Below, piece by piece: positions 20,148-40,431 of a stretch of DNA of 64,000 nt; the first letter of the stretch is position 1; each line of letters opens with the position of its first letter. The notes under the pieces are model-generated. The model made no database searches. It was not told the origin of the DNA and saw only the letters and a program-made list of their open reading frames with translations. The position numbers and the translations under genes were made by a program. Source of the DNA: Herbaspirillum sp. CF444 (GTDB lineage: Bacteria; Pseudomonadota; Gammaproteobacteria; Burkholderiales; Burkholderiaceae_D); the NCBI RefSeq assembly GCF_000282135.1, contig NZ_AKJW01000035.1, positions 1 through 64,000 on the forward strand. Reading direction: 5' to 3'.

Positions 20148-20250
20148 CTAGGGCCTGTTCACATTAAATCTGCGAGTGCGAACGCGCAGCAGGCGTTGAC
20201 TGCCTAGGCGCAGCAACGCATCTCGTAGATTTAATGTGAACAGGCCCTAG
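20148..20250. repeat. 103-bp element with perfect 24-bp inverted ends (MITE-like)
   Basis: The left end 20148-20171 begins CTAGGGCCTGTTCACATTAA; the right end 20227-20250 is its perfect reverse complement. The 55-bp interior has further pairing (GCGTTG with CAACGC around GCCTAGGC). There is no coding capacity and no T-tract. Ends of the GGGCCTGTTC type flanked by CTAG recall IS5-family termini and their YTAR target, so a small non-autonomous element is the best reading. It lies between convergent genes, and its outer CTAG supplies the TAG stop (20247-20249) of the minus-strand kinase. Confidence 0.7.
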
Positions 20251-22310: not shown

Positions 22311-23817
22311 TGTTCAGCATAGGGGTCTTGCCGCGGTAAGACGGCAGGCCGCTCATGATGCCCTCGAAATCCTGCAAGGGAGCGCCGATCTGCAAACCGT
22401 GGCTGGCGCTGAGGCGGAATTCATGAATGGTCCTTGCATGATGATTGGTGCGGCTCTTGATCACCGAAACCGCAGTGGAAATATCGCCGTGCGCTTCGAA
22501 GAAGCGGAACATCAGGATGGCGTCGCTGAGGTAACTCAAATCCACGTCCGAGCGAATCTCGCCGACCAGGCCGTGCTGTCCCAGCACCAGCAGGGCAGTC
22601 ACGCCTTGCAGGCTCAGATAGGTCAGCACTTCATGCATCTGCAGCAGCAGGAATTTTTCGCCCGGCATCGCCTGCAGATAGGCATTGAGGCTGTCGATGG
22701 CGACGAAGGTGCGTTCCTCCCGCTCGACCGCGTGGCGGATGCCGCTGGCGAATTCGCCCGGCGACATCTCGGCCGGATTGATCTGGTGCAGTGCCAGGCT
22801 GCCGTCGGCGATGTAGGGCGAGATGTCCATCCCGAGCGCGCGCGAACGGATCAGCAGGGTGCCGATGCCTTCGTCGAACAGGTAGTATGCCGCGCGTTCG
22901 CCGCGTTTGAGGGCGCTCAGCACGCAGCAGATCGAAGTGGTCGTCTTGCCGACGCCGGAAGGACCGCTCAGCAGGGTATTGGTGCCGCGCACCAGCCCGC
23001 CGCCGAGCAGCGTGTCCAGTTCGTCCACGCCGGTGCTCAGGGTGGCGTCCTCGAAATCGATGGCATGGTCGGCCGCAATCAGCCGCGGGAACACGCGCAT
23101 GCCGCCGGTCTCGAGCAAGAAGTCATGGTAGCCGCCGCTGAACTTGATGCCGCGCATCTTGACCACGCGCAGGCGCCGACGCTCGGCGCCGAACTCCTGG
23201 GCCGATTGCTCCAGCGTGATGACGCCGTGCGCGATGCTGTGCAATTGCAGATCGCTCGGATCGCTGGTGCGGTCGTCCAGCATCAGCACGGTGCAGTTGC
23301 GCGTCGCGAAGAAATGTTTGAGCGCCAGAATCTGGCGCCGGTAGCGCAGCGGGTTCTGCGCCAGCAGGCGCATTTCCGACAGGCTGTCGAAGATCACCCG
23401 CGACGGCCGCAGTTCATCCACGCGCGCCATCACGCTTTTGATGGTCTCGCCCAGCTCGACTTCGGACGGATGCAGAATGGATTGCTGGTAGTCGGGATTG
23501 AGATCCTCCTCGTCGATCATCTCGAACAGCGACAAGCCCTCGAGCGACCAGCCGTGCGAAGCCGCCACGGCGTTGAGTTCGGAGGCAGTTTCCGACAAGG
23601 TGATATAGAGACCGGATTCGCCCTTGGCGACGCCGGCCAGCAAAAACTGCAGGCCGAAGGTGGTTTTGCCGGTGCCGGGCGTGCCTTCCACCAGATAGAG
23701 ACGATGCGTCGTCAGGCCGCCCGCAAGGATGACATCAAGGCCGGCGATGCCGGTTGCAGCGCGATCGGAGTAACTTGGAAGGCGACCTGAAGTGAGGTTA
23801 TTTTTTTGTCTGTCCAT
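22300..23817 (-). CDS. KaiC-like tandem RecA-fold ATPase
   Basis: A 505-residue protein with two KaiC domains. Walker A motifs are GTPGTGKT (45-52) and GPSGVGKT (285-292). The catalytic Glu pair is SE in domain 1 (ITLSET) and DE in domain 2 (YLFDEG), where cyanobacterial KaiC has EE. At the phosphorylation loop, S423, S428 and Y429 align with T426, S431 and T432 of Synechococcus KaiC. The C-terminal A-loop tail that binds KaiA is absent; the protein stops soon after FEGIMSG. ATG 23817 is chosen because GTG 23820 sits only 2 bp from the purine RBS (gagaga). No kaiA or kaiB is nearby; the overlapping hybrid kinase is the likely partner. Confidence 0.9.
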   Translation of the reverse strand: MDRQKNNLTSGRLPSYSDRAATGIAGLDVILAGGLTTHRLYLVEGTPGTGKTTFGLQFLLAGVAKGESGLYITLSETASELNAVAASHGWSLEGLSLFEMIDEEDLNPDYQQSILHPSEVELGETIKSVMARVDELRPSRVIFDSLSEMRLLAQNPLRYRRQILALKHFFATRNCTVLMLDDRTSDPSDLQLHSIAHGVITLEQSAQEFGAERRRLRVVKMRGIKFSGGYHDFLLETGGMRVFPRLIAADHAIDFEDATLSTGVDELDTLLGGGLVRGTNTLLSGPSGVGKTTTSICCVLSALKRGERAAYYLFDEGIGTLLIRSRALGMDISPYIADGSLALHQINPAEMSPGEFASGIRHAVEREERTFVAIDSLNAYLQAMPGEKFLLLQMHEVLTYLSLQGVTALLVLGQHGLVGEIRSDVDLSYLSDAILMFRFFEAHGDISTAVSVIKSRTNHHARTIHEFRLSASHGLQIGAPLQDFEGIMSGLPSYRGKTPMLNNAG

Positions 23818-23820
23818 CAC

Positions 23821-24146: not shown

Positions 24147-24581
24147 ATGATGACAAGCTTATCCACTTCTTTATCGACACCCTCCGCTGATGGCGGCAGC
24201 GCCGGTCTGCACATCCTCGTGGTGGAGGACAATCTCGATTCGCAACAACTGGTCTGTGAACTGCTCGGTGCGCTGGGTCATCACGCAGAAGGCGTCGACA
24301 GCGGCGAGCATGCCCTGATCGCGCTGGAGCGGCATTGCTTCGACGTCTTGTTTACCGACGTCAATCTGCCGGGCATGTCCGGCATCGAACTGGCGCAACA
24401 GATGAACGTCCGGGTGCCGGCGCTGAAAATCATCTTTGCCTCCGGCTACGGCGCACAGATCAGCAAGAACGTCGGCAATGCCTCGTTCTCGTTACCCAAG
24501 CCTTACGACATCGACCAGTTGCAAAGCATCCTCGACGTCATCAGCCGTGACCTGCAACGTGCCGGCAATCTGGCGCACTGA
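24147..24581 (+). CDS. Single-domain response regulator
   Basis: A 144-residue protein consisting of one receiver domain after a Ser/Thr-rich 20-residue tail. Receiver landmarks are VVEDN, phospho-acceptor in LFTDVNLPGMSG, the Ser/Ala switch IFASGYG and Lys in SLPKPYD. There is no output domain, so it acts by protein contact or as a phosphate sink. It is divergent from the KaiC-like gene and convergent with the giant hybrid kinase (22-bp gap), so it could connect to either; no direct evidence chooses. Confidence 0.88.
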   Translation: MMTSLSTSLSTPSADGGSAGLHILVVEDNLDSQQLVCELLGALGHHAEGVDSGEHALIALERHCFDVLFTDVNLPGMSGIELAQQMNVRVPALKIIFASGYGAQISKNVGNASFSLPKPYDIDQLQSILDVISRDLQRAGNLAH

Positions 24582-24603: not shown

Positions 24604-27600
24604 CTATTTGTTGTCTGCAGCTATTGCTCCGGATTCGGTATCGGCAGCGAACAAGGCGATTGAGGCAAACGCAACTTCCATGGCGGCGTGGAGACGGCTC
24701 CGCATTTCCTGGCCGTCGCTGCCGTCCTCGATGGCTTCGATGGCCTCGACTTCGGCGGCAAGCCGCACGACATCGACGAGCGACAGATTGCCGGCAACGC
24801 CCTTGAGTTTGTGCAGCCATTTTCCAAGGGCCTTTTGATCGTCCGCCGCATGGCTGGAGAGTTGCTTGTCGTATTCTGCGAAATCGCTGCAGAATTTGAG
24901 CAGATATTTGCGATAGAGCGCCACGTCGCCCCAGACTTTCAAACCATGATTGACCGCGATGCCGGGAAACTTCCTGTCATCGAAGGGCGCCTCTTCGGCA
25001 AGAGGGGAGGCTTCGGGCTGCTCCGGCGCGGCAGACTCCGGTTGCTCCGGTTGCTCCGAGTGACAATGCGTCAACTGTTGAATGGTCGCGATCAACTCTT
25101 CGACATTAAACGGTTTGCTCACGAAGGCGTTCATGCCCGCGTTCAATGCGGCATCTTGTTGTGCCTTGAAAGCGCCGGCCGTGAGAGCGACGACAGGAAG
25201 TTGCGCCAATGCCGGCAAGGTGCGTAATTGTCGGGTGGTCTCATACCCGTCCATGATGGGCATTTGCACGTCCATCAAAACGATATCGATTGCATCCGGG
25301 TTGGCAAGCAGCCAGTCGAGTGCATTTTTTCCGTCATTGGCGAGCTGAACCACGGCTCCTTCGGCTGAGACGACCAGCATGGCAACTTCACGGTTGATTT
25401 CATTGTCGTCGACGATCAACACACGCACGCCGGGCAAGCGCCGCCGCTTTTTTTTCTGGGCCTGCATGCGCAGGCCGCTTGCAGATTCATGGCTGCGGCG
25501 GTTCAAGGCTTCCGTGACGTTGTTATGGAGGGTGGAACGCGTGACCGGTTTGCAAAGAATGCCATCGATGGCATCAATGCGAGTTTGCCTGAGCAACTCT
25601 TCGCGCGAAAATGCGGTCACCATCAGCACAATCGGCGCGGCTTCCTGCCGCAACATTTCTCGAATCTTGATGGCCGCGCTTAGCCCGTCCATGCCGGGCA
25701 TATTCCAATCAAGCAAAAAAACGTCAAAGTTGCCGCCGCCTTCCTGTTTGCTGCGTACTTTCTCGATGGCCTCTTCGCCCGACAGCGCCTTGACGACATT
25801 CCAACCCATGGATTGCGCCGTGAGTTCGAGATTTTCCAGCGCCATGTCATTGTCGTCGACGATCAAGGCATTGAGCGTCATCATTTCGGGGGCGGAAAAT
25901 TCCGAGTTCGCACTCCATTCGAACGGGATCGAAAACCAGAACTCACTGCCGCGCCCCGGTTCGCTGATGACGCCGATTTCGCCGCCCATCTGTTCGACCA
26001 GATGCCGGCAAATGCTCAGCCCCAGCCCGGAGCCCCCGAAGCGCCGCGTGGTTGACGCGTCGGCCTGGGTGAATGCGGCAAAAATCTGAGACTGCTTGTC
26101 AAGCGAAATGCCGATACCCGTGTCGCTGACGGAAAATCGCAATGTCGCCGTGTGTTCGGTTTGTTCAAGCAGGCTGATTTCCACCTTGACGACGCCATGG
26201 TCGGAAAATTTGATCGCATTTCCGGTCAAATTGATCAAAATCTGCTCAAGCCGGAGCGCATCGCCAAACAGTTGCCCGCCCAGCTCGGGCGGCGGCGCGA
26301 GGATCAGTTCGAGATCCTTGTGCCCCGCGTTCGCAGCCATGATGTCCGACAGTTCATCCAGCGTGGTGCTGATCCGGAAAGGCGCATGTTCGATTTCCAG
26401 GTGTCCCGCTTCAATTTTGGAAAAATCGAGGATGTCGTTGATGATGGACTGCAGCGTTTGTCCGCCGCTGCGTATTTTCCTGATCATGTCGCCGGTATCT
26501 CCGGCAAGATGGCGTTGATCAAGCAAGTAGGCGAATCCAAGAATGGCGTTCATCGGCGTGCGAATTTCGTGGCTCATGTGTGACAGAAATTCGGATTTGA
26601 GACGATTGGCTTGTTCCAATTGCAGGTTTTTTTCGGCAATTTCCTGCTGGCGATCGCGCAGTTGGGCGATGGCCCGTTCCAAATCCTGATTTTTCTGTTC
26701 CAGCACGGCCAGCAATTCCGCACGGCTCTCCGCCAAGGCCCGGGCAGCGCGCGTTTCGCTGGCTTCCAGTTCCTTGTTCATCATTTCCATGCGAATCCGG
26801 CGGCTATCCTCTTCGAACTGCTTGCGACGCAATTGGGCGCGCACGCGCGCTTTGAGAACGTCGAGTTCATGGGATTTCAGGACATAGTCATCGGCGCCCG
26901 TGCTTAAGCCTTCGATCATCGCCTCCTGATCTTCCATCGCGGTGAGCATGATGAGCGGAATATCCCGCGTGGCCGGCGACGCCTTGATCCGGCGGCAGGT
27001 TTCGGTGCCGTCCAGTCCGGGCATGAGCCGGTCCAGCAGGATGCAATCGACCGTTTGCACCGAGAGCATATCGAGCGCCTCTTGTCCCGAGTGCGCCAGA
27101 ATCACGTCGTAACCCTCGCCGCCCAGTGTGGAATTGAGTTCATGCAGGTAAGTCATGCTGTCGTCCACGGCCAGGATTTTCTTGGGACTTTGCAGGCTTG
27201 CCGTCGCATGGCGGGCCTCCACCTTGTCGATTTTCCGCAAGACCGCAGTGACCCGCGCCAACATCATGTCCAGCGATTCTTCCTTGCGCACGAAGGCATC
27301 GGCGCCGGAATCCAGCGCGTGCAGTTCGGCGCCATAGGATTCTGACCCGGTGAGCAGGATGCAAGGCGTATGGCGCAAAGCGGCATCCAGACGTATCTTG
27401 CGCACCACCGTTTGGCCGTCGATGCCGGGGAGGATGCCATCGACCACGATTGCCGCCGGGCGATTGGCTGCCGCACTGCGCAAACCTTCCTCGCCGCTTG
27501 CCGCATTGATGACATCGAAGCCTTGTTCCTGCAACAATTCGCTGAATCTTTCGCGGAAGGTTGTACTGTCGTCGATGACCAGCACCGTTGGGCGGACAGA

Positions 27601-28011
27601 GCGAGAGTGGGGGGCTGGCCGATCTTGCGTCTTCGCACGCGCCGCGTCATCGAGCAGTTGCGCTGCGCGTGCGACCACGTATTCCCGCTCATAGGGCTTG
27701 CCGACATAGTCGCTTGATCCGGTCAATAGTCCGCGGATGCGATCTTTGACTTCGGCCTCGGTAGAGAGCATCAATACCGGCAGATCGGCGCCCATCGTCG
27801 TGGCGCGAAATTCCCTGAGCAGTTCGATGCCATCCCCATCCGGCAGCAATACATCCAGGATGACCAGTCCGACCGGCTGAGTCGCCAGCGCCATGCGCGC
27901 CGCCATGGCGCTGGCGCAAGAGATGGTCGGCATGCCGGCGTCGGCAAACGCCTCCTCCAGATCGGCGCGCACTGTCAGGCTGTCGTCTACGATGAGGATG
28001 GCGCGGGTCAT
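24604..28011 (-). CDS. Giant hybrid histidine kinase (REC-REC-REC-HisKA-HATPase-REC-REC-Hpt)
   Basis: A 1135-residue cytosolic phosphorelay protein. Three N-terminal receivers have Asp53 ([11 protein letters not shown]), Asp191 ([11 protein letters not shown]) and Asp327 ([11 protein letters not shown]). A coiled coil (395-470) leads to HisKA His481 ([12 protein letters not shown]); the ATP domain has [16 protein letters not shown] and GSGLGLS. Two more receivers follow ([11 protein letters not shown] near 770; Asp914 in [11 protein letters not shown]), then a Pro/Glu linker and an Hpt domain with His1067 ([12 protein letters not shown]). It is the last gene of the chemosensory operon; its start overlaps the cheB stop by 4 bp. 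This is the slot of the GGDEF regulator in Wsp systems, so it probably carries the output. No DNA-binding or enzymatic output domain is present. Confidence 0.93.
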
Positions 28012-29069
28012 GATTGATCTCCCTTGGTCAGTGCCGCCAATGCCGGTGCGATTTCTGATATCGGCAAGATGCGTTGCGCCGCGCCGAGCAATACCGCTTC
28101 GCGCGGCATGCCGTAGACCACCGAAGTTGCCTCGTCCTGTGCAATCGTCAGTGCGCCGGCCTGGCGCAGCGCCAGCAATCCACGCGCGCCGTCCTGCCCC
28201 ATGCCGGTGAGCAGGCAGGCTGCAGCAGTGCTGCCGTATTCAACGGCGACGGATTCAAACAGTATGTCCACTGACGGGCGGCAGGAATACCGCGGCGCTT
28301 CATCGGTCAGCTGCAATTTTCGTCCTTGCACGATAAGATGCCGGCCGGAGGGCGCCAGGTAGATGCAGGACTTGCTCAAGGACTGGCCCGCCACCGCCAG
28401 GCGAACCTGATGATTCGTTTGTGCATCGAGCCAGTCGGCGAACGCCGTATCGAAAGGCGCGCTGATGTGGATGACGATGAGCACCGGCAGGGAAAAAGTC
28501 GCCGGCAAGCCATGCAGGATTTCAACGATCGCCCCCGGGCCGCCGGTGGAAGCGCCGATTACAACGATCTGACAAGTATTGGGCGCGCGTGACGGCTCCG
28601 GCGCCGACGCCGGTGGCGTTACCGGCAATTCGCGGATGGCGCCCAGGCGCGCGCGCAAATGCGTGACAACCTTTACCCGCGCCACCAGCTTGAGCATGGC
28701 GATGTAACGCTCCTCCCAACTGCCGTCGGCATCATCGGGACGCGGTTTTTCCAGCACGTCCACCGCGCCGGCGGCCAATGCCTCATAGGTCTTGAACAGC
28801 TCGCCACGGTTGACCGAGGAAGACACCACGAGAATCGGCGTCGGACAATAAGCCATGATGAATTCCGTCGCGGTCAGGCCGCTCATGACCGGCAAGATCA
28901 TGTCCAGCGAGATCACGTCCGGACGCAAGGAGCGGCAGAGCTCAATGGCCTGTTTTCCATCTTCCGCTTCACCGACGACCTCGATGGCGGGATCGCCGTC
29001 GAGTACTTCGCACAAACGCTTGCGCACCGTTAGGGAATCTTCCACAACGAGGACGCGCAGCCGTTTCAT
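28008..29069 (-). CDS. cheB: Protein-glutamate methylesterase, CheB/WspF type
   Basis: A 353-residue CheB with an N-terminal receiver (Asp56 in SLDMILPVMSG), a linker and the methylesterase domain. The catalytic triad is visible: Ser174 (IGASTGGPGA), His201 (VIHISAPF) and Asp293 (GMGQDGARG). ATG 29069 overlaps the cheA-like stop (ATGA); the upstream open frame lies inside cheA and is not used. It should demethylate the operon's receptor and be switched by phosphorylation from the CheA/REC protein. Confidence 0.92.
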   Translation of the reverse strand: MKRLRVLVVEDSLTVRKRLCEVLDGDPAIEVVGEAEDGKQAIELCRSLRPDVISLDMILPVMSGLTATEFIMAYCPTPILVVSSSVNRGELFKTYEALAAGAVDVLEKPRPDDADGSWEERYIAMLKLVARVKVVTHLRARLGAIRELPVTPPASAPEPSRAPNTCQIVVIGASTGGPGAIVEILHGLPATFSLPVLIVIHISAPFDTAFADWLDAQTNHQVRLAVAGQSLSKSCIYLAPSGRHLIVQGRKLQLTDEAPRYSCRPSVDILFESVAVEYGSTAAACLLTGMGQDGARGLLALRQAGALTIAQDEATSVVYGMPREAVLLGAAQRILPISEIAPALAALTKGDQS

Positions 29070-31096
29070 TGCTGCACCAACTCGGTGACGCGTTCCAGAA
29101 ATCCGACCTGGTCGAACTCGCCCTTGACGATATAGTCGGCGGCGCCGCATGCGCGGCCGCGCTGGCGGTCTTCCGGTGCATTGCGCGATGTCACGAGGAT
29201 GGCGGGTACTTCGCGCAATGCGGGGTCGTTGCGCGTACGTTCGACAAAGCTGAAACCGTCCATGCCCGGCATTTCGACATCAACCAGAAACAGCGCATAG
29301 GTATTGCGCGATGCCATATCGAGTCCTTCTTCGGCCGATGCCGCCGTTTCCACGGTAAAGCCGGCGGACTCCAGTATGCTGCATTCGAGCATGCGGGTGG
29401 TGAGGGAGTCGTCGATGATAAGAACGGGACGCAATGCCGGAATCGGCAACATGGAGGCTGTCGATTCCGCCGTGCTTCGGTATTGCTGCATCACGAGTTG
29501 TTCAGGATCGAGTACGATGCGCGGATTGCCTTCGTCGTCGAGGTGCACGCCCAGGATGATGCGATCGGCCGGAGCCAGGTCCGGCAAGGGTTGCAGAACT
29601 ATGGTATCCATGCCCTGCAAGCGCTCGACCGACAAGGCGACGATCATGTCGGCGGCGGCAATCACGATGGCCGTTACGGCAGGGGAGGTTAGCAGTGGCT
29701 TGAGGCCGGTTTTCTTTTGCCGAATGCCCAGTTGCAGACGTATCAGAGGGATCTGCTTGCCTTCATGGATAATCGTATCGCCCTGAGGGGTCCGGGAAAT
29801 ATCTTCCGTTCCGACGCGCAAGGTACGGCGCACGGCGTCCAGCGGTAACGCCACCAATTCGCCATCGGCTTGCACCATCAATACGTCCAGTGCCGCCAGC
29901 GACAAGGGTACGCGCAATTCAATTGACGTCCCGTTGCCACGTTCGGTATTGGCGATCACTTCGCCATTTAGACGTTGCATGACGTCGCGCACGAGATCAA
30001 GTCCGATTCCGCGTCCGGCCAGCTCGGTCACCACGCTGCTGGTGCTGATGCCGCCCTGCAATAGCCGCGCCAGCAAAGTCGGCGCATCCAGTTGTTGCGT
30101 GTCGCCGGAGACATTTTCTTTTTTCTGCAGCACGCGCCGTACGGCGTCGAGATCGATGCCGGCGCCATCGTCATGGCAGTGAAACCAAAACCGATACCCA
30201 TGCCGCGAGATGGTCAACGTAATGCGTCCGGTCGCCGGTTTCCCGGCCATCTGGCGCTGCTGCACCGTTTCGATGCCATGCGCTACGGCATTGCGCACCA
30301 ACTGAATCAGCGCGCTCTGGACGGTATCGAGCACTTCGCCGTCGATGCGCATGTCGCCGCCAATGGCTTCGAAGACGACTTGTTTGCCGCTGCTATGGGC
30401 GGCATCGCGCGCGGTCCGTTCCAGCGCATTGAAGACACTCGACACCGGCACCAGCCGTAAATGTTCGGCGACATCGCGTGCTTGTCGCAGTTCACGGTCC
30501 ATGCGTTCAACGCCGTACGCCATGTCGCGTTCGACGGTCTCGGCCAACGCGAGTATTTCCGCCATCCTGGCGCTGATCTGGGCGGCCGGCAGGGTATTTT
30601 TCTGAGATGCCAGCGCAATCAGATTCCGCATGCGTTCGACCGAAGCATGCACACGCCTGACGTTGGCAAGTTCGTTGCCGATTTCCCCCAATCCTTCCAG
30701 CAACATATCGACCTCGGCAACATCGGCGCGCGCAACGCGCAGGACTGCATCCGTCGCGGCCGGGCGCGCCTCGTTGTTTTCGGGGCGCGGCAATTGGGCG
30801 ATTTTTGCGGCGATGGCATCCAACGCGGCGAGTATTTCATCGACCTGTTCACGCGGTACTGCCTGCGCTCCTTCGCGATACGCGGCCAGGCTATCCTCAA
30901 TGCTGTGCGCCAGATCGGCGATCTCTGCTTGCCGCACGACACGGGCGGCGCCTTTCAAGGTATGCGCCTGGCGCAGCAACTGCATGACCAGCTCCGCACT
31001 GGCGCTGTTTTTTTCCAGATCGAGCACGGTTTTGGCGAGTTGCTCGAGCAGCTCACCGGCCTCGATTCTGAAGTAGCGATACGGATCTTTTGCCAT
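29066..31096 (-). CDS. CheA-type histidine kinase with C-terminal receiver (WspE/FrzE-like)
   Basis: A 676-residue hybrid CheA. P1 Hpt has His45 (AHTLKGAARVV). There is no separate P2. The dimerisation and ATP domain (about 120-420) has LVRNAVAHGIE, DDGAGIDL and GRGIGLDLV. A CheW-like P5 region follows, then a receiver with Asp606 (LVDVEMPGMDG). The receiver fused to CheA is typical of alternative-function chemosensory systems such as Wsp and Frz. Together with the receptor and two CheW proteins of the operon it should form the signalling array. It is 10 bp after the receptor gene. Confidence 0.92.
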   Translation of the reverse strand: MAKDPYRYFRIEAGELLEQLAKTVLDLEKNSASAELVMQLLRQAHTLKGAARVVRQAEIADLAHSIEDSLAAYREGAQAVPREQVDEILAALDAIAAKIAQLPRPENNEARPAATDAVLRVARADVAEVDMLLEGLGEIGNELANVRRVHASVERMRNLIALASQKNTLPAAQISARMAEILALAETVERDMAYGVERMDRELRQARDVAEHLRLVPVSSVFNALERTARDAAHSSGKQVVFEAIGGDMRIDGEVLDTVQSALIQLVRNAVAHGIETVQQRQMAGKPATGRITLTISRHGYRFWFHCHDDGAGIDLDAVRRVLQKKENVSGDTQQLDAPTLLARLLQGGISTSSVVTELAGRGIGLDLVRDVMQRLNGEVIANTERGNGTSIELRVPLSLAALDVLMVQADGELVALPLDAVRRTLRVGTEDISRTPQGDTIIHEGKQIPLIRLQLGIRQKKTGLKPLLTSPAVTAIVIAAADMIVALSVERLQGMDTIVLQPLPDLAPADRIILGVHLDDEGNPRIVLDPEQLVMQQYRSTAESTASMLPIPALRPVLIIDDSLTTRMLECSILESAGFTVETAASAEEGLDMASRNTYALFLVDVEMPGMDGFSFVERTRNDPALREVPAILVTSRNAPEDRQRGRACGAADYIVKGEFDQVGFLERVTELVQQ

Positions 31097-31106
31097 ATCG
31101 CTTTTT

Positions 31107-32576
31107 TTAAATGGCTTGCGGTTGAATCATGCGCCGCAGGTCGAGCGACAAGCCGGCAAGTTGCGAAGCGGTCTGCTGCGTTTGCGCCGAACTGGTTTCG
31201 GTTTCCTGGGTGGCCTGGGCGACATCCGTGACGGCAATGCGCACTTGTTCGGCAGCAGTGGCTTGTTGCTTGGTCGACAGTTCGATTTCGCGAGCAGCCT
31301 CGGTCGTGGTGGCGACCAAACCGGCGATCTGCTTGAACGCCGAGGCCACTTCGGTAAATTGACGGGCTCCGGCGTCGACCGCCTTGGCGCCGCTTTCAGT
31401 GGCCATGACCGTGGTATTGACTGCACCGCGGACATCGTCGACCTGGTTACGGATGCCTTTGGTGGAGTTTGCCACGCGATCGGCCAGCTTGCGAATTTCC
31501 TCGGCCACGACCGCAAAGCGCTTGCCCGCATCGCCTGCTCCGGTCGCCTCGATGGTGGCGTTGATCGCCAGAATATTGGTTTGTTCAGCCAATTCGGAAA
31601 CGATATCGAGCACCGCGCCGATCTCTTGCGATTTTCGGCCGAGATCGAGCATGTGGCTGACCACCTGGTCGATCTGGCTCCGAATCACGGAAATTGCTTC
31701 CTGCCCTTTGTCGACCGTATTTTCCCCGGCGCGCGCGGAGGTGGCGGTCTGTTCGGCTATTTGCGCCACCCGTTGCGCGCTTTCGGCGATCTGGCGAGAG
31801 GTCACGCCCAGCTCGCTGATGGTCGTGCTGATTTCAGTCATGGCGCCGGCTTGTTCCTTGGCGCCGGATGCTTGCTGGGTTGCGGCTGCCTGCAGTTCCG
31901 CCGAGGAACTTTGTACGTGTCCGACCGCGGCGCCGAGCTGGGTCGCCAAGGAACGCGCAATCATGAAACCGGTGACGCTGACGAATAGCAGGCAAACCAG
32001 GGTGCCGCCGACGATCGTGAACTTCGCCGTGGCCGCGGTTGCTTCCGCTTCGGCGGCGCGCTTGTCGAGCAACTCGCGTTCGTCCTGATTCATCTGGTCG
32101 ACGATCTTGCGCAGCTCGTCCATCAGGGACTTTCCTTCGTTGGACAGCACGATTTTCAATGCCTCGTCGGCATGGCCGTCCTTGCGCAAATCAATGGTGC
32201 GCTTGAGTTCGGTAAATTTGGCTGCCGTGATGGTATCGATCTGATCGATACGACGTTGCTGGATCTGCCTGTCCAAGGTCAATGCGCGCAAGTCGCCGAG
32301 CAATTTGGGGGCTGCTTTAACCGCCGCGGCATACGGTTCAAGGTAGGCGCTGTCCCCGGTCAGCAAATAACCGCGCTGTCCGGTCTCTGCATCCTTCAGA
32401 TTGCTGAGGTAAGTCGCAATCTGCGCCGTCACTTTATTCGAGCGGGTGACCGAGTAACTGGTATCGATCAAGGCGTAGGTGCTCCAATAACCGACGGCGC
32501 CGACGATGATCAAAAAGAGGGCGGATATCGAGAAGCCGAATGCCAGTTTTCTGCCAAAGGTCCAGTGCTTGTTCAT
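31107..32576 (-). CDS. Methyl-accepting chemotaxis protein with CHASE3-like sensor
   Basis: A 489-residue receptor. TM1 is at about 12-32; the periplasmic helical region ([21 protein letters not shown]) is the CHASE3 hallmark; TM2 is at about 186-207. HAMP is very short or absent between TM2 and the signalling helices. The tip region is divergent from classical receptors ([28 protein letters not shown] is represented by the variants TIEAT and GDAGKR). It is the only receptor of this chemosensory operon and sits between cheW and the CheA/REC gene. The ligand is unknown. Confidence 0.92.
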
Positions 32577-32594
32577 GAATGATCGCTCCTTGTT

Positions 32595-33134
32595 TTATCG
32601 CCGAATGTTCTGGTCGCGAATGTTTTTCAACAACGATGTCAAATTGATGATCGACAGTAATGCATGTTCGGTGCGCACGGCATCATTGAGGTGAGGGCGG
32701 GCCGCCGCCGGCGCGACGGCGGCAACTTGATCGGCGAGGAAAATATGTTCGGAACGCACCGCCAAATGGGCGTCGAAGGCATCAAAGGCCAGCGCTACCG
32801 GTTCACGCTCGCGCAACAAGACCAGCCAGCGCGGCGGCGTCTGGCGCACGTAGCCAAGCAGTACCGCCAGGTCGTACACGGCGGCGATCTGGCCGCGAAA
32901 TCCGGCCATGCCCAGCAGCGCGCCGACAGGTGACGGCAATGGCACGATGCGGCGGTCGACATACAAACCGCCGATATCGGCGACTCTCATTGCATAACTG
33001 CCGGCGCCAACGCGAATGGACAGCAGTTTTTCAATGCTGCCGTTTTCCGGACTGGGGGCTTGCGTGAAGTCACGATCGAACTCCTCTCGCAAAGCGAGTA
33101 ATTGTGCATGTGATGTTGCCTTGGCCTGGCTCAT
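32595..33134 (-). CDS. cheW: CheW-like coupling protein (second of two)
   Basis: A 179-residue CheW domain protein with about 45 extra residues at the N-terminus. Blocks: LLSIRVGAGSYAMRVADIGGLY, VPLPSPVGALLGMAGFRGQIAAVYDLAVLLG. ATG 33134 overlaps the CheR stop by 4 bp. It should couple the receptor to the CheA/REC kinase. The end (INLTSLLKNIRDQ) is slightly unlike classical CheW. Confidence 0.88.
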   Translation of the reverse strand: MSQAKATSHAQLLALREEFDRDFTQAPSPENGSIEKLLSIRVGAGSYAMRVADIGGLYVDRRIVPLPSPVGALLGMAGFRGQIAAVYDLAVLLGYVRQTPPRWLVLLREREPVALAFDAFDAHLAVRSEHIFLADQVAAVAPAAARPHLNDAVRTEHALLSIINLTSLLKNIRDQNIRR

Positions 33135-34648
33135 GCGGACTCTCCCAAAGCAGTCAGTTCCGCCCGGCACAAATCGATCAGCGCCTCGCGTTTGAAACCG
33201 CCGCCGAACAGCAATACGCGCGAGGCGTCTTCCTTTTGCAACAAAACAAGGGCTTCGCTCAGATCGCGATGCGCGCTTTGACGATCGCCGCGCTTGCGCG
33301 CCAGCAAGCCGATATGAAAACGCGGCATGGCAAATCCGGGATCGAGATAGATTGCCGCCTGGTCGTGCTCGATTGCGCCCTCGACGTCGCCGGCCCCTTC
33401 ACTGCACAAGGCTAATATGTAGTGCGCGCCCGCACTTAACGCGTCGCGCAGCAGCAATTCGCGACATACCGCTTCGGCCTGCGCCAACGCGCCGCTATGA
33501 CTGAGCGATACAGCCTTGAGGAGCAAGACATCCGGGGCGTTGGCCTGTTCAATGGGCAAATCGCGAATCTGTTCCAGCGTCAAATCGAATTGCTCATTGT
33601 GCAGGAATTCGAGTGCGCGATGCAAATTTGCAACCGGGCGCGAGGCCAGTGCAGGGCGCTTGATGGCCTCGTTGGATTCCTGCGGGATCAGGGCATGAAT
33701 GCGCTCCGATGCCTCCTGAATTGCAGTGATCCAGCCGGTATCCAGTTTGGTCGATGCCGGCTGCCAGCCGGCCTGGACCGGGCTGCCCATAGGTATAGGC
33801 ACAGGCGCCGGCGAAGCAAGTTGATCCTTGCGCTGGTAATAAAACGTTTCATGCGAATGGCAAAGATGAAAATCATTGGAAATGGCGCGCAAGGTTTCAG
33901 CGTGACCGAGAAACAAATAGCCACCCGGCGCCATCGCACGCGCAATGCGTCGGACGGCCGCCTGCATTTGCTCGCCGTTGAAATACATCAGGACGTTGCG
34001 GCAAAACACGATGTCGAATCTGAGCGGCTGCCAGAAGTCCGCATCGTCATGCGTCAAATTGCGCGCTTCGAATTTGACCATGCGCCGTATTGCATCGTTG
34101 AGGATGAAGGTATCTCCATCGGATTTGAACCAGCGCGCTTTCAGTTCGTCCGGACATTCGCGCAAGGACCAGTTGGTATAGTGCGCCCGCGCGGCCTTTT
34201 GCAACATGGCGGGGTTGACGTCCACGGCAGTGATGGAAATATTTTCCGCCAGCGCGGGAAAATATTCGCGCGCGGCAATCGCCAGCGAATAGGCTTCATC
34301 GCCGGATGCGCAACCGGCGGACAGTATCCGGATGCATTGACCATTGCCGGCGGCAGCCGCGCGCTGGGGCAGAGCGACAGCGGCATAAGCCTTGAACTGT
34401 TCGATATTGCGCAGAAAATAGGTTTCGGTGACGGTCAGCTCGCGGGCCAGAGATCCAATCTCGTCATTGGCAGGCGCGTCGGAAAGACTCTCGATGTATT
34501 GCGTATAGGTGCCGCCGCGGGAAAGTAGACGGTTATGCAATATTCTGGCGAGATTGCCGAACTTGGACTCATCGAAATACAGGCCCAGCAGCTCGACAAT
34601 GCGCACCTGAAAGCGACGGACTTCTTGCGGGTCGGGCAGGGCGATCAT
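33131..34648 (-). CDS. cheR: CheR-type methyltransferase with C-terminal TPR region (WspC-like)
   Basis: A 505-residue receptor methyltransferase. The N-terminal all-helical domain and SAM-binding domain (about 1-275) have TVTETYFLRNIEQF, LSAGCASGDEAYSLAI, FDIVFCRNVLMYF and GGYLFLGHAETL. After a Pro-rich linker, residues 345-490 contain TPR-like helices (HRALEFLHNEQFDLTLEQI; AIEHDQAAIYLDPGFAMPRFHIGLLARKRGD). TPR-bearing CheR is typical of alternative chemosensory systems. The chosen ATG 34648 overlaps the upstream cheW stop; the longer open frame runs antisense-like through cheW and has an Arg/Cys-rich non-protein-like sequence. Confidence 0.92.
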   Translation of the reverse strand: MIALPDPQEVRRFQVRIVELLGLYFDESKFGNLARILHNRLLSRGGTYTQYIESLSDAPANDEIGSLARELTVTETYFLRNIEQFKAYAAVALPQRAAAAGNGQCIRILSAGCASGDEAYSLAIAAREYFPALAENISITAVDVNPAMLQKAARAHYTNWSLRECPDELKARWFKSDGDTFILNDAIRRMVKFEARNLTHDDADFWQPLRFDIVFCRNVLMYFNGEQMQAAVRRIARAMAPGGYLFLGHAETLRAISNDFHLCHSHETFYYQRKDQLASPAPVPIPMGSPVQAGWQPASTKLDTGWITAIQEASERIHALIPQESNEAIKRPALASRPVANLHRALEFLHNEQFDLTLEQIRDLPIEQANAPDVLLLKAVSLSHSGALAQAEAVCRELLLRDALSAGAHYILALCSEGAGDVEGAIEHDQAAIYLDPGFAMPRFHIGLLARKRGDRQSAHRDLSEALVLLQKEDASRVLLFGGGFKREALIDLCRAELTALGESA

Positions 34649-35127
34649 CGCGGGCCGCCTTGCAGATCGAGCGCAGCCCAAGCTGCATCCGAAATGACAC
34701 GTGCAGCCTGCAATATCAGGATCAATTCGGCATCGAGTATGCTCATGGCCTCGACCAAACTGGTGTCGGCCGCGCCCAGCAACGGTGAAATCTCCGCTGT
34801 CAGCATGCTTAAACTGCGTACGCCGACGACGTCGTCGACCGCAAATGCAATGCGCCGCGCGCCAAGTTTGAGCGTTACAAAACGGGCATGGCGAGCATGA
34901 ATGGGAGCGTCGCCGGAGCCAAGCAGGCAAGCGACATCAATCACCGGCATGACGGCTCCGCGAATGATCGATACACCGAGCAAGAAAACCGGCATGTCCG
35001 GCATTGGTTCTATCGGCAAGGACCGCATCGTTTCCACTATGTGCTCAACGGGCAGCGCGCATAGACGCAAGTCGCAGCGGAAAACCAAGAATAGCTCGGA
35101 TCTCGAATCATCCCCCGGTCGACTCAT
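34645..35127 (-). CDS. cheW: CheW-like coupling protein (first gene of the chemosensory operon)
   Basis: A 160-residue CheW domain protein: FLVFRCDLRLCALPVEHIVETMR, LLGVSIIRGAVMPVIDVACLLG, and FAVDDVVGVRSL. ATG 35127 has a good RBS (gggag, 8 bp upstream). It overlaps cheR by 4 bp. Two CheW proteins in one operon match the WspB/WspD arrangement. The promoter should lie in 35128-35310; no clear boxes seen. Confidence 0.9.
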   Translation of the reverse strand: MSRPGDDSRSELFLVFRCDLRLCALPVEHIVETMRSLPIEPMPDMPVFLLGVSIIRGAVMPVIDVACLLGSGDAPIHARHARFVTLKLGARRIAFAVDDVVGVRSLSMLTAEISPLLGAADTSLVEAMSILDAELILILQAARVISDAAWAALDLQGGPR

Positions 35128-35355: not shown

Positions 35356-36282
35356 TCAGTCGTCCGACTGCTCTTCGAGCACCAGCTCAAAACAGATCAA
35401 TACGGGATTGCGCCCGCGCGCCAGCACGCCTTCGCAGACCTTGCCGCGCGGATCGATCAGGGCAATGTCCAGTCGGCAGCGCAGGCCGTCTGCGGTCGGG
35501 CTCACCTGTCCCTCGCGCACCAGGATTTCGGTCGCGAGATCTTCCACCACGCGACCGTCCTCAAACTCGGCGCCGATAATGCTGCCGACGCTGCCGCGCA
35601 CTTTCGCATGGCGGATGCCGTGCATGCGGCAGACATCTTCAATCGCCATGTTCAGATCTTCATCGGGACGGATGCGCGCCAGCACCGTGCGTGGGCCGTC
35701 GATCTTGCTGTCGGCCTGCATATCGATGGCAACGGCGGCAACGACGGCGGGGTGGAACAGCGTGAAATGGGTTTCCGGATCGAAGCGCGTTTCCATCGTG
35801 GCGTTGCGCAGGCCCCAGGCCTGCGCCGCAGCCGGCGCAACGACGATGGTCTGATCCATCAGCATGTGTCCGCCCTGGCGTTTGCCGTCGGCATCGCGCC
35901 AGATGGCGTGACAATGCACGAAGGGCGCGCCGTCGCGGCGGCCGTAAGTGGCGCAGGCCAGTTCGATGACCACGCCGCCCGCGACCTCATGCGGCGCGCT
36001 GTAGAAAGCGGCGTGCTTGCCGTCGTGCGACAAGGCCGGCATCAAAAAATGGTGCGGCGACACGTGCAGGTTTTCAAACCGTACCGTGGCGCCGCTGATG
36101 CCGGCGGCGGCCAGCGGAATGCTGATAGCGTCGCGCAGATTCATTCCCGCTTGTAGCGTGAAGCTGGTCGTGGCGGCGTTGCCCGCCAGACTGACGATGC
36201 GAACCGGATCCGGCGCGCCGGGATGGCGGGCGCTGCGGGCGAAGGGCGGTTTGATATGTTCTACGGCCGGCGATGCTTGCAT
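35356..36282 (-). CDS. Tandem PPC-domain (DUF296) protein
   Basis: A 308-residue protein with two PPC-type domains. Domain 1 (about 25-165) has FVHCHAIWRDADGKRQGGHML, the usual HxH and GGH metal/trimer signature. Domain 2 (about 185-300) has VRGSVGSIIGAEFEDG and ends RGRNPVLICFELVLEE. No AT-hook is seen, unlike plant AHL proteins. Bacterial PPC proteins are mostly uncharacterised and form trimers. ATG 36282 has RBS ggaaaggag. It is transcribed away from the CheA-like cluster. Function not assigned. Confidence 0.8.
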   Translation of the reverse strand: MQASPAVEHIKPPFARSARHPGAPDPVRIVSLAGNAATTSFTLQAGMNLRDAISIPLAAAGISGATVRFENLHVSPHHFLMPALSHDGKHAAFYSAPHEVAGGVVIELACATYGRRDGAPFVHCHAIWRDADGKRQGGHMLMDQTIVVAPAAAQAWGLRNATMETRFDPETHFTLFHPAVVAAVAIDMQADSKIDGPRTVLARIRPDEDLNMAIEDVCRMHGIRHAKVRGSVGSIIGAEFEDGRVVEDLATEILVREGQVSPTADGLRCRLDIALIDPRGKVCEGVLARGRNPVLICFELVLEEQSDD

Positions 36283-36650
36283 GCATGTCTCCTTTCCGGG
36301 CGGTGTGTGCTCTCGGCGTGTAGTCGGGTGTTCATTGTCCCGATGGGACGAAAGGAACATGGTAGCGCGCTTTCGGTTTCTCCGTTGTCGGCGTCTTTGG
36401 AAAAGAATTCCGATGGTGACTTGCGTTCCATGACAGTAGTCGAATTGTTTCCACGCAGCATCAATTAAATGAATTCATGTTTTTCCCATCGACGCTGATG
36501 CAGGAAATTTACCCCTCTCTTTTCCTGTTTGCATTTTGTTGTCATGCGGAAGTAATACTGGGGTGCAAGAATGCTGCGGCGTCGAGAGTGGCTGATCAGT
36601 TGGATAACAAGCTCACCCGAATGCCTACCGCCACCAGGGAAGAATTCCAC
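36283..36650. other. 368-bp divergent intergenic region
   Basis: Region between the PPC gene and the CheA-like operon. The downstream frame is open back to an ATG at 36477, but the 58 extra codons lack a membrane-receptor-like start, and ATG 36651 has a better RBS (agggaag). AT-rich patches occur around 36455-36485 and 36525-36545; no promoter can be placed with confidence. Confidence 0.4.
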
Positions 36651-39071
36651 ATGACCATCCGTCTGCGCATTACCTTGCTCGTCATTCTCACGTTCATCGC
36701 GATCTCCGCCATCGGCGGTTATGCCGTGTTCCAGTCCCGCGGCAGCGCCGTGGAAGTCAAGTCGGTGACAGAAGGCGTAGTGCCGAGCGTGCTGGCGTCG
36801 TCGGACCTGGTCGGGCAATTGAAGGACGTGCAACTGGCCGCGATGGTCATGGTGACCGAGACCGACAACAACCTGGTCGGTCAGGAAAACGAAAAGCTGG
36901 CCGCCAAGAAGGCGGCGCTGGAAAAAGCCCTTGAATTCCAGGCCAGCCAGGCTGTGAGCCAGGCGCAAAAAGGCCTGATCGAACAAGCCAGGGAAAGCCT
37001 CGACAACTATTTCGGCGCCATCGACAACACTGCCAAGTTCAAGCTGGCCGGCAAGGATGCGCTGGCGCAGGCGTCGTTCTTCGGCGGCGTGGTGCAATAC
37101 CAGGCCGAGCTGGAAGGCGTGGTCGATACCTTGCGCATCGAAAAGAACCGCAGCAAGGACACCGCCATCGCCGCGCTGAATGCGAATCTGGCGTCGACCA
37201 CGACAACCATTTCCATCGTGACCGCAGTCGCCGTGGTGGCGCTGACCTTGATCGGTTTCCTGCTGTATCGCCAGATCACCGGCCCGATCAGCCGCATGCA
37301 GACCATGATGACCGAGATCGCCGTCAACCAGGACTTCACGCGCCGCCTGCCGGTGGATCGCATGGATGAAGTCGGCCATTCCATCGTCGCCTTCAACGGC
37401 ATGATCGAGAAGATCCAGGAAGCCTCGGCACAGGTCAGGCAAAAGACCGCCGACATGCAGGCCATGCTGCAGAACATCCCGCAAGGCATCCTGACCGTGG
37501 TCGACGGCAACAAGGTGCATCCGGAATATTCCGCCTTCCTGGAAACCGTATTCGAGACCACCGACATCGCCGGTCGCGACCTGATGGACCTGGTCTTTAC
37601 CGATACCACGCTGGGCGCCGACACGCTGTCGCAGATCGAAGCCATCGGCGGCGCCTGCATCGGCGAAGACGTGATGAACTTCGAATTCAACGAACACCTG
37701 ATGGTCGGCGAAGTCGAGAAGAAGATGGCCGACGGCCGCGTCAAGATCCTCGACCTGAGCTGGTCGCCGATCACCGACGACGCCGATCAGGTGATCCGCC
37801 TGATGCTGTGCGTGCGCGACGTGACCGAACTGCGCAAGCTGGCGGCCGAAGCCAACGAGCAAAAACACGAACTGGAAATGATCGGCGAAATCCTGGCCGT
37901 GAGCGCACCGAAGTTCCAGGAGTTCATCGTCACGTCGCGCCGTTTCCTCGACGAGAACGAACAGCTGGTGCATCAGAACCCGGAAGCCACCGCATTCGCC
38001 ATCGCCAAGCTGTTCCGCAACATGCACACCATCAAGGGCAACGGCCGCACTTACGGTCTGCTGCACCTGAGCAACGTGGTGCACAGCGTCGAAGAGCACT
38101 ACGACGACCTGCGCCACCCGGAAACCGGCGCCGTCTGGAATCAGGAACATCTGCTGCAGGATTTGGCCAAGGTGCGCGTGGCCATCGACCGCTATGCCCG
38201 CATCAACGAAGTCACCCTGGGGCGTCAGGCCGCACCGGAACAAGCCGCTGCCGTCGAACGCCACATCATGACCATCGACCGCAAGCACATCCTGGAAAGC
38301 CTGCACCGCCTGGAAACGGTCAACACGGCCAACCTGCACGAATTGGTAAGCGTGCGCAATGCCGTGCGCAAGACCTTGCGCCTGCTGGGTACTGAATCGA
38401 TCGACGAAATACTGGCAAGCGTGACCGACTCGCTGCCGGCATTGGCTGCGGAGCTGGGTAAAGCCGCGCCGGTGGTCGACATCGAAGACAACGGCTACGT
38501 CATCCATGCGCATTCCTCGGCGCTGCTGAAGAACGTCTTCATGCATCTGATCCGCAACGCCGTCGACCATGGACTGGAAACGCCGGAAGAACGCCTTGCC
38601 GCGGGCAAGCGCGAAGCCGGCACGATCCGTCTGCAAATGGGCGTGATGGACAACATGCTGCACATGGCGCTGTCGGATGACGGCCGCGGCCTGGCGCTGG
38701 CGCATATCCGCCGTACCGGGATTGAAAAGAACCTGATCGGCGTCGACCAGGTTCTGACTGACGCCGAAGCGGCCGAACTGATCATGCGCCCGGGATTCTC
38801 GACCCGCAGCGAAGTCACCGACGTGTCGGGACGCGGTGTCGGCATGGACGCGGTGCTGGATTTTGTGACCCGCGAGCATGGCCGCATCGAGATTCAGTTC
38901 CTGGATCAGGCCGAGGGCGCCGACTTCCGTCAATTCCAGGTCAATGTGCTGCTGCCGGAAAACGTCGCCGTGGAAGTCGACGGCATCGACGTGGCTTACC
39001 CGGTGCCTGAGCACGATCAGGCTCTGCCTGTCGGCACGCCGGCGGCGGGCAACGATCCGCAGGTCGCGTAA
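36651..39071 (+). CDS. Membrane-bound CheA-like histidine kinase (4-helix sensor-HAMP-PAS-Hpt-HATPase)
   Basis: An 806-residue protein that joins a chemoreceptor-like front to a CheA-like back. TM1 is at about 7-27, a periplasmic helical bundle at 30-185 (4HB_MCP-like), TM2 at 186-206, HAMP at 207-262, a PAS-like region at 270-395. The Hpt domain has His459 ([19 protein letters not shown]). The CheA-like dimer and ATP domain (535-770) has [16 protein letters not shown] (676-681) and SGRGVGMD (726-733). No receiver, no CheW-like P5 domain and no methylation-tip domain are present. It is followed by a short receptor-like protein, a CheX-like phosphatase and a CheY, all on the same strand. Presumably it phosphorylates that CheY. 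I do not recognise a named system. Confidence 0.85.
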
Positions 39072-39144
39072 TCGCAAGATCGCCGCTCTGGCAGTAGTCG
39101 GTGGTGCAGTTCAGTTGTGTAGTTTCATTGCAAGGATGTGTTTC

Positions 39145-39867
39145 ATGATGGTGAATTCGATTCTGTTTGTCGTGCTGGGAGCGCTGTTGTCCGGCGTGCC
39201 GTTGGCCTTGCTGCTCAGGCGGCAGAGCAGGCGCATGAAGCGCATGGTCGACCTGGAGCAGGTCGAGGTACTCAAGCGTAACGTCGAGGCGACGCTGCAG
39301 GAGCAACAGCAGAACATCGATGCGCATCAGCAAGAACTGGAAGCACAACGCCGCGACAACGACCTGCGCCTGGTGCATACCCGGCGTGAAACCGAACAGG
39401 TCGTCGCCCAGCTCAGCTCGCGCAATTCGGAAAGCATGGCGCGCGTACTGGAAAACTGCGATGCCTCGCAGGAAACCATCGGCAATCTGCTCGGCCTGAT
39501 GCGCACCTTCGAGCGCTGGCACGACGACATGAACGTGCTGATCACGCACAACCGTGAAATGCATCGCAAGAACGACGAGTTCGCGCTGATCGTCAACCAG
39601 GTCATCATCGTGGCGCTCAACGCCTCCATCGAAGCGGCCCGTGCCGGCGCCCATGGCCGCGGCTTTGCGGTGGTGGCCTCGGAAGTGCGCGACCTGGCGC
39701 AGCGTGCCGAGAAACTGTCCAAGAGCTACCGCGCCAACCTGTACCAGAACGACCTGATCACCACCACCACCTTCCAGGATCTGCAGGCCGGCGGCAAGAT
39801 GATCATCGGCGCCATCATCGGCCTCGACCTGATCAACAAGAAAACCAAAGAAGCGCTGGCTGCTTAA
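39145..39867 (+). CDS. Short membrane-anchored MCP-signalling-domain protein
   Basis: A 240-residue protein with one N-terminal TM (about 3-20), a basic patch, a coiled coil (30-100) and a truncated receptor tip with [21 protein letters not shown] and [19 protein letters not shown]. There is no periplasmic sensor and no HAMP. ATG 39145 has RBS aagga. It sits between the CheA-like kinase and the CheX-like gene. Since the kinase lacks a CheW-like domain, direct helix contact or a separate CheW would be needed for it to act on the kinase; it may instead be a cytoplasmic sensor of cell state. Function inferred only from context. Confidence 0.82.
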
Positions 39868-39879
39868 GGAACCGAGTCC

Positions 39880-40431
39880 ATGCTGAGCCAATCCGCCAAA
39901 GACGGCTTCGAGCTGCTGCTGACGCAGTCGCTGAAGAGCAGCCTTGCGCCGTCCGGCGTCGAGGCGCAGATTTCCACGCCGCCTGACATGAGCGACTTCC
40001 CGGAAAAGCAGATGGTCGTGCTGACGGTGTCATCCTATTTATTTCGGCTGATGGTGATGTTTTACTTTACGCCCAATGCCGCCACGCGCAATCATTTCGC
40101 CCGTCTCAACAATATCGACGAGGCCGAGATGAGCGAGCAGAGCTTCATGGACGCCATCGCCGAAAGCGGCAATCTGTGCTGCGGCATCCTCAACCGCGAT
40201 CTGGGTAATTTCTTTCCGCACATCGGCATGTCGACCCCGAATGTGATCGACAAGAACTGTGCGGCCTATCTGCAAAAACTCAACTGCCAGCATGTCCGGC
40301 ATTTCGCCGTCGATATGGACGGCTCCCCACGATTTCACGTGAGCTTGTGCGTATCGGCCTACGCGGATATCGACTTCAGTGTGTCCGCCGAAGAACTGGG
40401 AAGCGATACCGGCGAGCTCGAGCTGTTTTAA
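39880..40431 (+). CDS. CheX-like CheY-phosphate phosphatase
   Basis: A 183-residue protein. DAIAESGNLCCG (91-102) matches the CheC/CheX/FliY active-site pattern D/S-x3-E-x2-N-x3-G exactly, with Glu95 and Asn98 as the catalytic pair. Only one such motif is present, as in CheX. It starts 12 bp after the short receptor gene and precedes a CheY by 27 bp, which supports dephosphorylation of that CheY. Overall similarity to CheX cannot be measured here. Confidence 0.75.
   Translation: MLSQSAKDGFELLLTQSLKSSLAPSGVEAQISTPPDMSDFPEKQMVVLTVSSYLFRLMVMFYFTPNAATRNHFARLNNIDEAEMSEQSFMDAIAESGNLCCGILNRDLGNFFPHIGMSTPNVIDKNCAAYLQKLNCQHVRHFAVDMDGSPRFHVSLCVSAYADIDFSVSAEELGSDTGELELF

Follow-up and report, generated by a model that had tools for sequence, protein, structure and literature searches.

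A chemosensory operon of Herbaspirillum sp. CF444 ending in a hybrid histidine kinase with three front receivers, a possible target of CheA

Gene Content and Domain Architecture

We analysed a 64,000-nucleotide stretch of the Herbaspirillum sp. CF444 genome (positions 1 to 64,000 of contig NZ_AKJW01000035.1; the window in what follows) and describe here a chemosensory operon of seven minus-strand genes at 24604-35127, encoding in order a CheW, a CheR, a second CheW, a methyl-accepting chemotaxis protein (MCP) with a CHASE3 sensor, a CheA with an attached receiver (CheA-REC), a CheB, and a hybrid kinase of 1135 amino acids (aa). Gene coordinates are those of ATG starts that we selected and then checked. 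With these starts, neighbouring genes overlap by 4 bp at four of the six junctions, among them the junction of cheB and the kinase gene, where a first-pass annotation made from the sequence alone had already noted the overlap; the MCP gene is flanked by gaps of 18 and 10 bp. Pfam searches bore out the gene order and domain content given in that annotation (weakly for the TPR part of CheR), including its statement that the last gene encodes a kinase rather than a GGDEF regulator.

The first gene, cheW (34645..35127, 160 aa; Pfam CheW, 82.8 bits), overlaps by 4 bp with cheR (33131..34648, 505 aa; CheR, 170.6 bits), whose product ends in a weak TPR tail: TPR_2 (25.2 bits, cut-off 27) and TPR_16 (21.4 bits, cut-off 32.7) are both below threshold, as are the TPR-type NCBIfam models MamA, LcrH/SycD, and PrsT. 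The second cheW (32595..33134, 179 aa) scores 30.7 bits with Pfam CheW, and the MCP (31107..32576, 489 aa) contains CHASE3 (133.9 bits) and MCPsignal (111.9 bits) domains, with no HAMP domain in the Pfam table. Pfam and residue checks identified Hpt (His45), HATPase, CheW, and receiver (Asp606) domains in CheA-REC (29066..31096, 676 aa), and a receiver followed by a methylesterase in CheB (28008..29069, 353 aa).

The terminal kinase (24604..28011) has the architecture REC1-REC2-REC3-helix-HisKA-HATPase-REC4-REC5-Hpt. Its front block consists of REC1 (27646..28011, Asp53), REC2 (27226..27594, Asp191), and REC3 (26824..27186, Asp327), and a putative signalling helix (26602..26823), delimited from a low-confidence structure model and from a comparison of linker lengths, leads to HisKA (26404..26598, His481) and HATPase (25921..26265); the tail comprises REC4 (25498..25875, Asp768), REC5 (25072..25428, Asp914), and Hpt (24640..24924, His1067). 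The residue check found D53, D191, D327, H481, D914, and H1067 exactly where they had first been placed, and a receiver located earlier only "near 770" proved to carry D768. The acidic pair, the Asp, the Ser/Thr, and the Lys of REC1-3 are invariant across the window kinase and four relatives. The Hpt domain is only marginally above its Pfam cut-off (26.3 against 24.6 bits), and we also identified it by a motif alignment and a separate structure model: in the motif HKLxGxA the His, K, L, G, and A are invariant among ten homologues (the next G is found in 9 of 10), and the domain modelled alone has a mean predicted local distance difference test score (pLDDT) of 81.3, with nearly all top matches in a structure search being Hpt domains, at weak E-values (best 0.061) and probabilities of up to 1.00. 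The kinase thus contains a full set for a four-step phosphorelay (HisKA, HATPase, receivers with Asp, and Hpt with His). Its scores against the NCBIfam models of BarA (540.3, cut-off 890) and TorS (522.6, cut-off 676.5) are below both cut-offs, so it is neither of these proteins, and Pfam gave no further sensor domain, no PAS, and no HWE domain in it.

Distribution of the Operon

We used the CheA sequence as a query at E <= 1e-100 in a sample of the order and at E <= 1e-75 in samples of the family, class, and phylum. Matches were found in 5 of 399, 2 of 195, 2 of 369, and 2 of 398 genomes, respectively, with the window genome counted in each; these counts are lower bounds, since the samples overlap and two to six candidates were scored per genome among the matches listed. 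The only match in the family sample besides the window genome is G1236, and the class and phylum matches (G501 and G809; 36% and 34% identity over partial length) belong to other clusters. Altogether we identified the operon in six genomes: the window genome, G1236 (same family, other genus), and G058, G068, G372, and G133 (same order). In the families of G058, G068, and G133, the front block was recovered at E <= 1e-70 from 1 of 4, 1 of 5, and 1 of 5 genomes, each the one already known. The operon is apparently rare and its distribution scattered.

The end of the operon is the same in all six genomes, in that cheB is followed by a gene opening with the REC1-REC2-REC3-helix block. G1236 has the identical seven-gene order and the identical final architecture (1185 aa), and since these recur in another genus, the architecture of the operon is more than chance. 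Comparison with the window kinase revealed that the front block (residues 1-446) is 79% identical in G1236, 70% in G058, 66% in G372, 65% in G068, and 61% in G133; for the attached kinase the corresponding values are 75%, 28%, 40%, 44%, and 34%. The genes also end differently, with HisKA-REC-REC-Hpt in the window and G1236, HisKA-REC-REC in G068 and G372, PAS-HisKA in G058, and HisKA only in G133. A single-receiver gene on the same strand directly follows the kinase gene in G058, G068, and G372; in the window, G1236, and G133 we saw no such gene at this position.

We also searched named genomes with the whole kinase as query and scanned 80 of the 155 loci, which were kept, for CheA, CheB, and CheR. 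Matches above 60 bits were present at five of these 80 loci, and the three of the five that were fully annotated are other che clusters, without the front block. In full-text literature searches, which mostly did not extend to subscription journals, no title or abstract opening that we found describes a REC3-kinase-REC2-Hpt protein as a chemosensory output.

Relationship to Wsp and Other Chemosensory Systems

The operon had been described as Wsp-like. This holds for its gene content, since Wsp systems (WspA-F, WspR) also combine an MCP, two CheW, CheR, CheA-REC, and CheB in one operon; they differ in having a diguanylate cyclase as output and another gene order (MCP-W-R-W-A-B, against W-R-W-MCP-A-B-kinase in the window). 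For a phylogenetic comparison we took from plasmid records seven clusters that we class as Wsp-type by their gene order (Azoarcus, two Cupriavidus, Burkholderia multivorans, Novosphingobium, Mesorhizobium, and Variovorax); solely those of Azoarcus (diguanylate cyclase) and Mesorhizobium (PleD family) have a GGDEF product annotated downstream of cheB. In the CheA tree the six operon systems form a clade of their own (100/100), apart from that of the seven Wsp-type clusters (100/100), and the CheB tree gives the same split, each side again at 100/100. The Azoarcus CheA shares 30.7% identity over 77% of the query. With the present sampling, membership in Wsp is rejected by the two trees together with the gene order. 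The window genome has five other CheA-like matches, four of which were placed in the tree, all outside the Wsp-type clade (the fifth, C35:38478-39062, belongs to a CheA-like gene of the window described below and was left out); these matches do not suggest a Wsp system elsewhere in the genome.

The first-pass annotation had also set the operon against Wsp by its output, a contrast that is weakened because a form of Wsp with a kinase as output, WspH, also exists, which PMC8552884 finds in Burkholderia only. Could the window operon then be a plain Wsp system in which a kinase has replaced the lost WspR, as in Burkholderia? The gene content is similar, and WspH, as characterised in PMC8552884 and by our Pfam search of a B. 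multivorans copy, is indeed a receiver-kinase in place of the GGDEF output. We nevertheless regard this explanation as very improbable, given the separate CheA and CheB clades, the different gene order, and the differences of the B. multivorans WspH itself, which is a protein of 377 aa with one front receiver and no tail, encoded 5′ of the MCP gene.

The Che3 cluster of Rhodospirillum centenum offers a direct precedent: it likewise combines a CheA-REC with a second kinase carrying front receivers, and there the hybrid kinase CheS3 receives phosphate from CheA3 on its REC1 and is controlled by CheA3 (PMC3868531). CheS3 is a REC-REC-PAS-HWE kinase in which a single receiver can be phosphorylated, and it is paired with a dedicated CheY3, whereas the window kinase has three intact receivers, a HisKA domain, no PAS that we found, and a REC-REC-Hpt tail, and its operon has no adjacent CheY on the same strand. 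Among Azospirillaceae, Azospirillum ramasamyi shares the order W-R-W-MCP-A-B of the window, and Indioceanicola (locus L131, presumed kin of Che3, chosen by architecture alone) has a CheS3-like REC-REC-PAS-HWE kinase after cheB. The CheA proteins of four such clusters, that of Indioceanicola included, fall outside the CheA clade of the window. Since both the Wsp-type and the Azospirillaceae CheA proteins lie outside its clade, the operon represents a separate lineage.

Chemosensory arrays with a kinase as output are already known, from CheA3-CheS3, from WspH, and from the estimate that a kinase module is present in about 40% of the regulators of cheR-TPR clusters (PMC3447774). What appear to be new are the front block of three receivers, the tail with its Hpt relay, and the variety of kinases behind the block. 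With a CheA branch distinct from those of Che3 and WspH, the operon would then add a further lineage whose array probably drives a second kinase, and it is probably a chemosensory operon with an alternative function, that is, a role other than steering movement.

Resemblance of the Front Receivers to CheA Partners

The front and tail receivers of the window kinase have different relatives. We compared each of them with 76 receivers from hybrid-kinase tails, 23 from CheB, 21 from CheA, and 11 others ("CheY-like" and "CheS3-like" below are our own labels). REC1 matches best with CheA-attached receivers (50.8 bits; hybrid-kinase receivers <=36.2), and REC2 with the CheA-attached receivers of the operon relatives (70.7 bits; hybrid-kinase receivers <=45.3). 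REC3 is closest to one CheY-like (73.8 bits) and one CheS3-like (70.0 bits) receiver, followed by CheA (61.0 bits), with hybrid kinases at <=48.3 bits. The best matches of REC4 and REC5 are hybrid-kinase receivers, at 98.1 bits (CheA <=31.2) and 148.7 bits (CheA <=60.1). The receiver motifs show a similar pattern: REC1-3 of all six operon kinases read DDSxT (18 of 18), and REC4 and REC5 of the window kinase read DDN. Behind the kinase domain of free hybrid kinases, N occupies the third place in 55 and S in 6 of 101 distinct motifs, as counted with a crude motif finder that returned 20 CheA matches from 27 CheA rows (2 of them apparently stray), yielded some spurious motifs in hybrid kinases, and failed to pick up any of three WspR and one WspH.

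An earlier suggestion that the front receivers could accept phosphate from CheA is therefore consistent with these comparisons, in which REC1 and REC2 are nearest to CheA-attached and REC3 to chemosensory receivers, and with the precedent of CheA3 and CheS3. In R. centenum, transfer from CheA3 to REC1 was visible solely with the CheA3 receiver blocked, and that receiver is a likely phosphate sink (PMC3868531); for this reason we expect the receiver of the window CheA to compete for phosphate as well.

The Linker Between Front Block and Kinase

Linkers of this kind are known to keep heptad phase in other kinases. The distance from the Lys of REC3 to an RRIR motif at the end of the conserved block is 25 residues in all six kinases. 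From the RRIR motif to the HisKA His we counted 77 residues in the window, G1236, and G068, 84 in G372, and 49 in G133, so that these five distances are all multiples of seven (11, 12, and 7 heptads). The informative part of this rule lies in the differences (0, 0, +7, and -28); both non-zero steps, if free to vary, would fit by chance in about 1 of 49 cases, by our own estimate from five sequences, made post hoc. In G058, which has a PAS domain between block and kinase, the distance is 206, no multiple of seven.

A model of the full kinase contains one helix at residues 383-498, at low confidence there; the linker lengths, which vary in whole heptads, also favour a helix that runs from helix 5 of the receiver into HisKA. 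Foldseek searches with this model returned ShkA and GacS first, and chains of LvrB as the third to eighth matches. In LvrB a helix connects the N-terminal receiver with HisKA, as is probably the case in the window kinase, and phosphorylation of the receiver is the input; its linker directly continues helix 5 of the receiver and forms a coiled coil upon receiver phosphorylation (PMC13269768). It differs in having one receiver, and the words CheA and chemotaxis are absent from the main text of the paper.

Probable Kinase Exchange Behind the Front Block

The kinase half of the window protein resembles free hybrid kinases of its own bacterial family more than it does any of the other operon kinases except that of G1236, for example the G036 kinase with a phytochrome front (61% identity) and a free kinase of the window genome with a PF21623 sensor and PAS front (57%). 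These free, BarA/TorS-like kinases share the HisKA-HATPase-REC-REC-Hpt half and have sensor domains in front, where the window kinase has its receiver block. One of the nearest free relatives is a phytochrome with a HisKA-REC-REC-Hpt tail at L096 1147-4848.

In the CheA tree G133 branches first, then G058, followed by the pairs window/G1236 and G068/G372, every such branch being starred. In the kinase tree the operon kinases occupy three separate spots and form a single clade in 0 of 200 bootstrap trees; those of the window and G1236 belong to a clade of ten rows (support 100/93), whose other eight members are free hybrid kinases from the same genus or family. These comparisons suggest that at least two, and probably three, kinase types stand behind one front block.

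An exchange of kinases is favoured but unproven. Against it, a tree with the operon kinases forced into one clade was not rejected by the approximately unbiased (AU) test (p = 0.111), and a tree of four rows over a longer tail gave p = 0.289 for one clade; in addition, the kinases of G068 and G372 are on a very long branch, and long branches weaken both the kinase tree and the test. The argument for exchange comes from the most divergent types (window against G058, 28%; window against G133, 34%). In our view the window/G1236 and G058/G133 types are likely the outcome of an exchange, which may also have occurred for the G068/G372 type. Tentatively, the REC1-REC2-REC3-helix block might be an exchangeable socket, into which different kinases were plugged at joints that keep the heptad phase and behind which CheA would drive whichever kinase is attached; the kinase of the window would then derive from hybrid kinases of its own family, which carry phytochrome or other fronts elsewhere, and would have brought along its own Hpt relay. 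We give this idea somewhat less than an even chance.

A Model for Control of the Kinase by CheA

We propose a two-layer relay as the most likely mechanism, with reasonable though limited confidence and as a reading of sequences and models: CheA would control the second kinase, in that the front receivers are phosphorylated, mechanically gate the attached kinase, and so start a relay through Hpt. The array of the CHASE3-MCP and CheW would set the autophosphorylation of CheA at His45. Phosphate would pass from CheA to CheB, to its own receiver at Asp606 (probably a sink), and to at least one of Asp53, Asp191, and Asp327. The dimer state of REC3 would then act through the continuous helix, in heptad register, on the HisKA helix and switch the kinase, and phosphate would move from His481 to Asp768 or Asp914, on to His1067, and from there to a separate response regulator encoded elsewhere.

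Several observations weigh against this proposal. The DDS motif is shared by REC5 of G1236, a tail receiver, and the receivers of Wsp-type regulators read DDQ (6 of 6), as does that of WspH; because of these DDQ receivers, DDS is no general mark of CheA targets. The model of the full kinase is weak (pLDDT 69.9, predicted template modelling score 0.36, most of residues 398-434 below 50), and the hydrophobic heptad periodicity of the helix is modest, with 54% and 50% at the best two positions. A direct helix from block to kinase is not universal, since the PAS domain of G058 lies between them. Finally, the precedents disagree on the sign of control: phosphorylation of the receiver turns CheS3 off (PMC3868531) and LvrB on (PMC13269768). 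We lean slightly towards activation of the window kinase by phosphorylation of its front receivers.

Alternatively, the front receivers could be phosphate sinks or docking sites for CheA without any gating, with a kinase that senses otherwise and an operon that merely brings the two together. A receiver that is a likely sink is attached to CheA3 of R. centenum (PMC3868531), the window CheA already has a receiver too, and the PAS domain of G058 could sense by itself. Yet Pfam found no other sensor domain in the window kinase, and a block of 446 residues kept at 61-79% identity, joined through linkers that differ by whole heptads, fits the passing of a signal better; we regard this alternative as improbable. 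The operon kinases form a natural series, with one receiver block joined to clearly different kinases at 7, 11, and 12 heptads. This series makes directly testable by what means receiver phosphorylation acts on a kinase to which the receiver is joined, a matter that PMC13269768 describes as largely unknown before the LvrB structures.

Final Output and Cyclic di-GMP

Beyond the kinase's own receivers, none of the proteins encoded in the operon stands out as an acceptor of phosphate from His1067, in agreement with the first-pass annotation. That annotation had also found no enzyme of cyclic diguanylate (c-di-GMP) turnover in the operon, which holds for the whole 84-kb contig: none of the 51 GGDEF matches of the genome is located there. 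We considered as the missing target a single-receiver gene on the plus strand (24147..24581), convergent with the kinase gene and probably outside the operon. Its product shares 19-20% identity with the single receivers encoded directly after the kinase gene in three relatives, and no receiver gene was seen in that place beside the G1236 operon; this candidate is unsupported.

The final output could also be c-di-GMP turnover, with Hpt passing phosphate to a REC-GGDEF-EAL protein encoded elsewhere, an end point compatible with control of the kinase by CheA. In its favour, four of the five relatives have GGDEF-EAL genes adjoining or close to the operon: in G1236 a gene with two receivers is found 84 bp upstream on the same strand; in G058 such genes adjoin the operon both upstream (without a receiver) and downstream (with one); in G133 a gene with a receiver is one gene away, downstream; and in G068 one is less than 2 kb off, on the other strand. 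The window genome has the 51 GGDEF matches mentioned above. On the other side, the contig of the window has no GGDEF gene, and in G372 a Pfam scan covering part of an 11.9-kb contig showed no GGDEF-EAL gene. Moreover, the G1236 gene finds its best match in the window genome at 41% identity, over residues 298-860 of 863, and the neighbourhood is weak evidence because GGDEF genes are so many per genome. We therefore rate c-di-GMP as a rather unlikely end point. The GGDEF-EAL proteins near the operons of the relatives, several of them with receivers, are encoded at L119 925-3516, L097 4650-6833 and 17667-19457, L109 7074-9308, and L107 4-6687. The last of these is a protein of at least 2228 aa (its frame leaves the locus) with Ser/Thr protein kinase, AAA ATPase, GAF, PAS, GGDEF, EAL, and receiver domains.

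Neighbouring Genes

Directly upstream of the operon and on the same strand, Pfam identified a gene for a PCC-domain protein (35356-36360). It is followed on the plus strand by a gene for the CheA-like protein mentioned above (36477-39071), which contains a weak four-helix sensor, HAMP, Hpt, and HATPase domains, with no CheW or receiver domain in the Pfam table, then by an MCP-signal protein (38878-39867) and a sub-threshold CheX match (39880-40431); perhaps the genes at 36477-40431 are a second small chemosensory unit adjoining the operon. On the other side, beside the convergent receiver gene at 24147-24581, the minus strand encodes a KaiC-like ATPase and then a PAS-histidine kinase-receiver protein (20247-23820).

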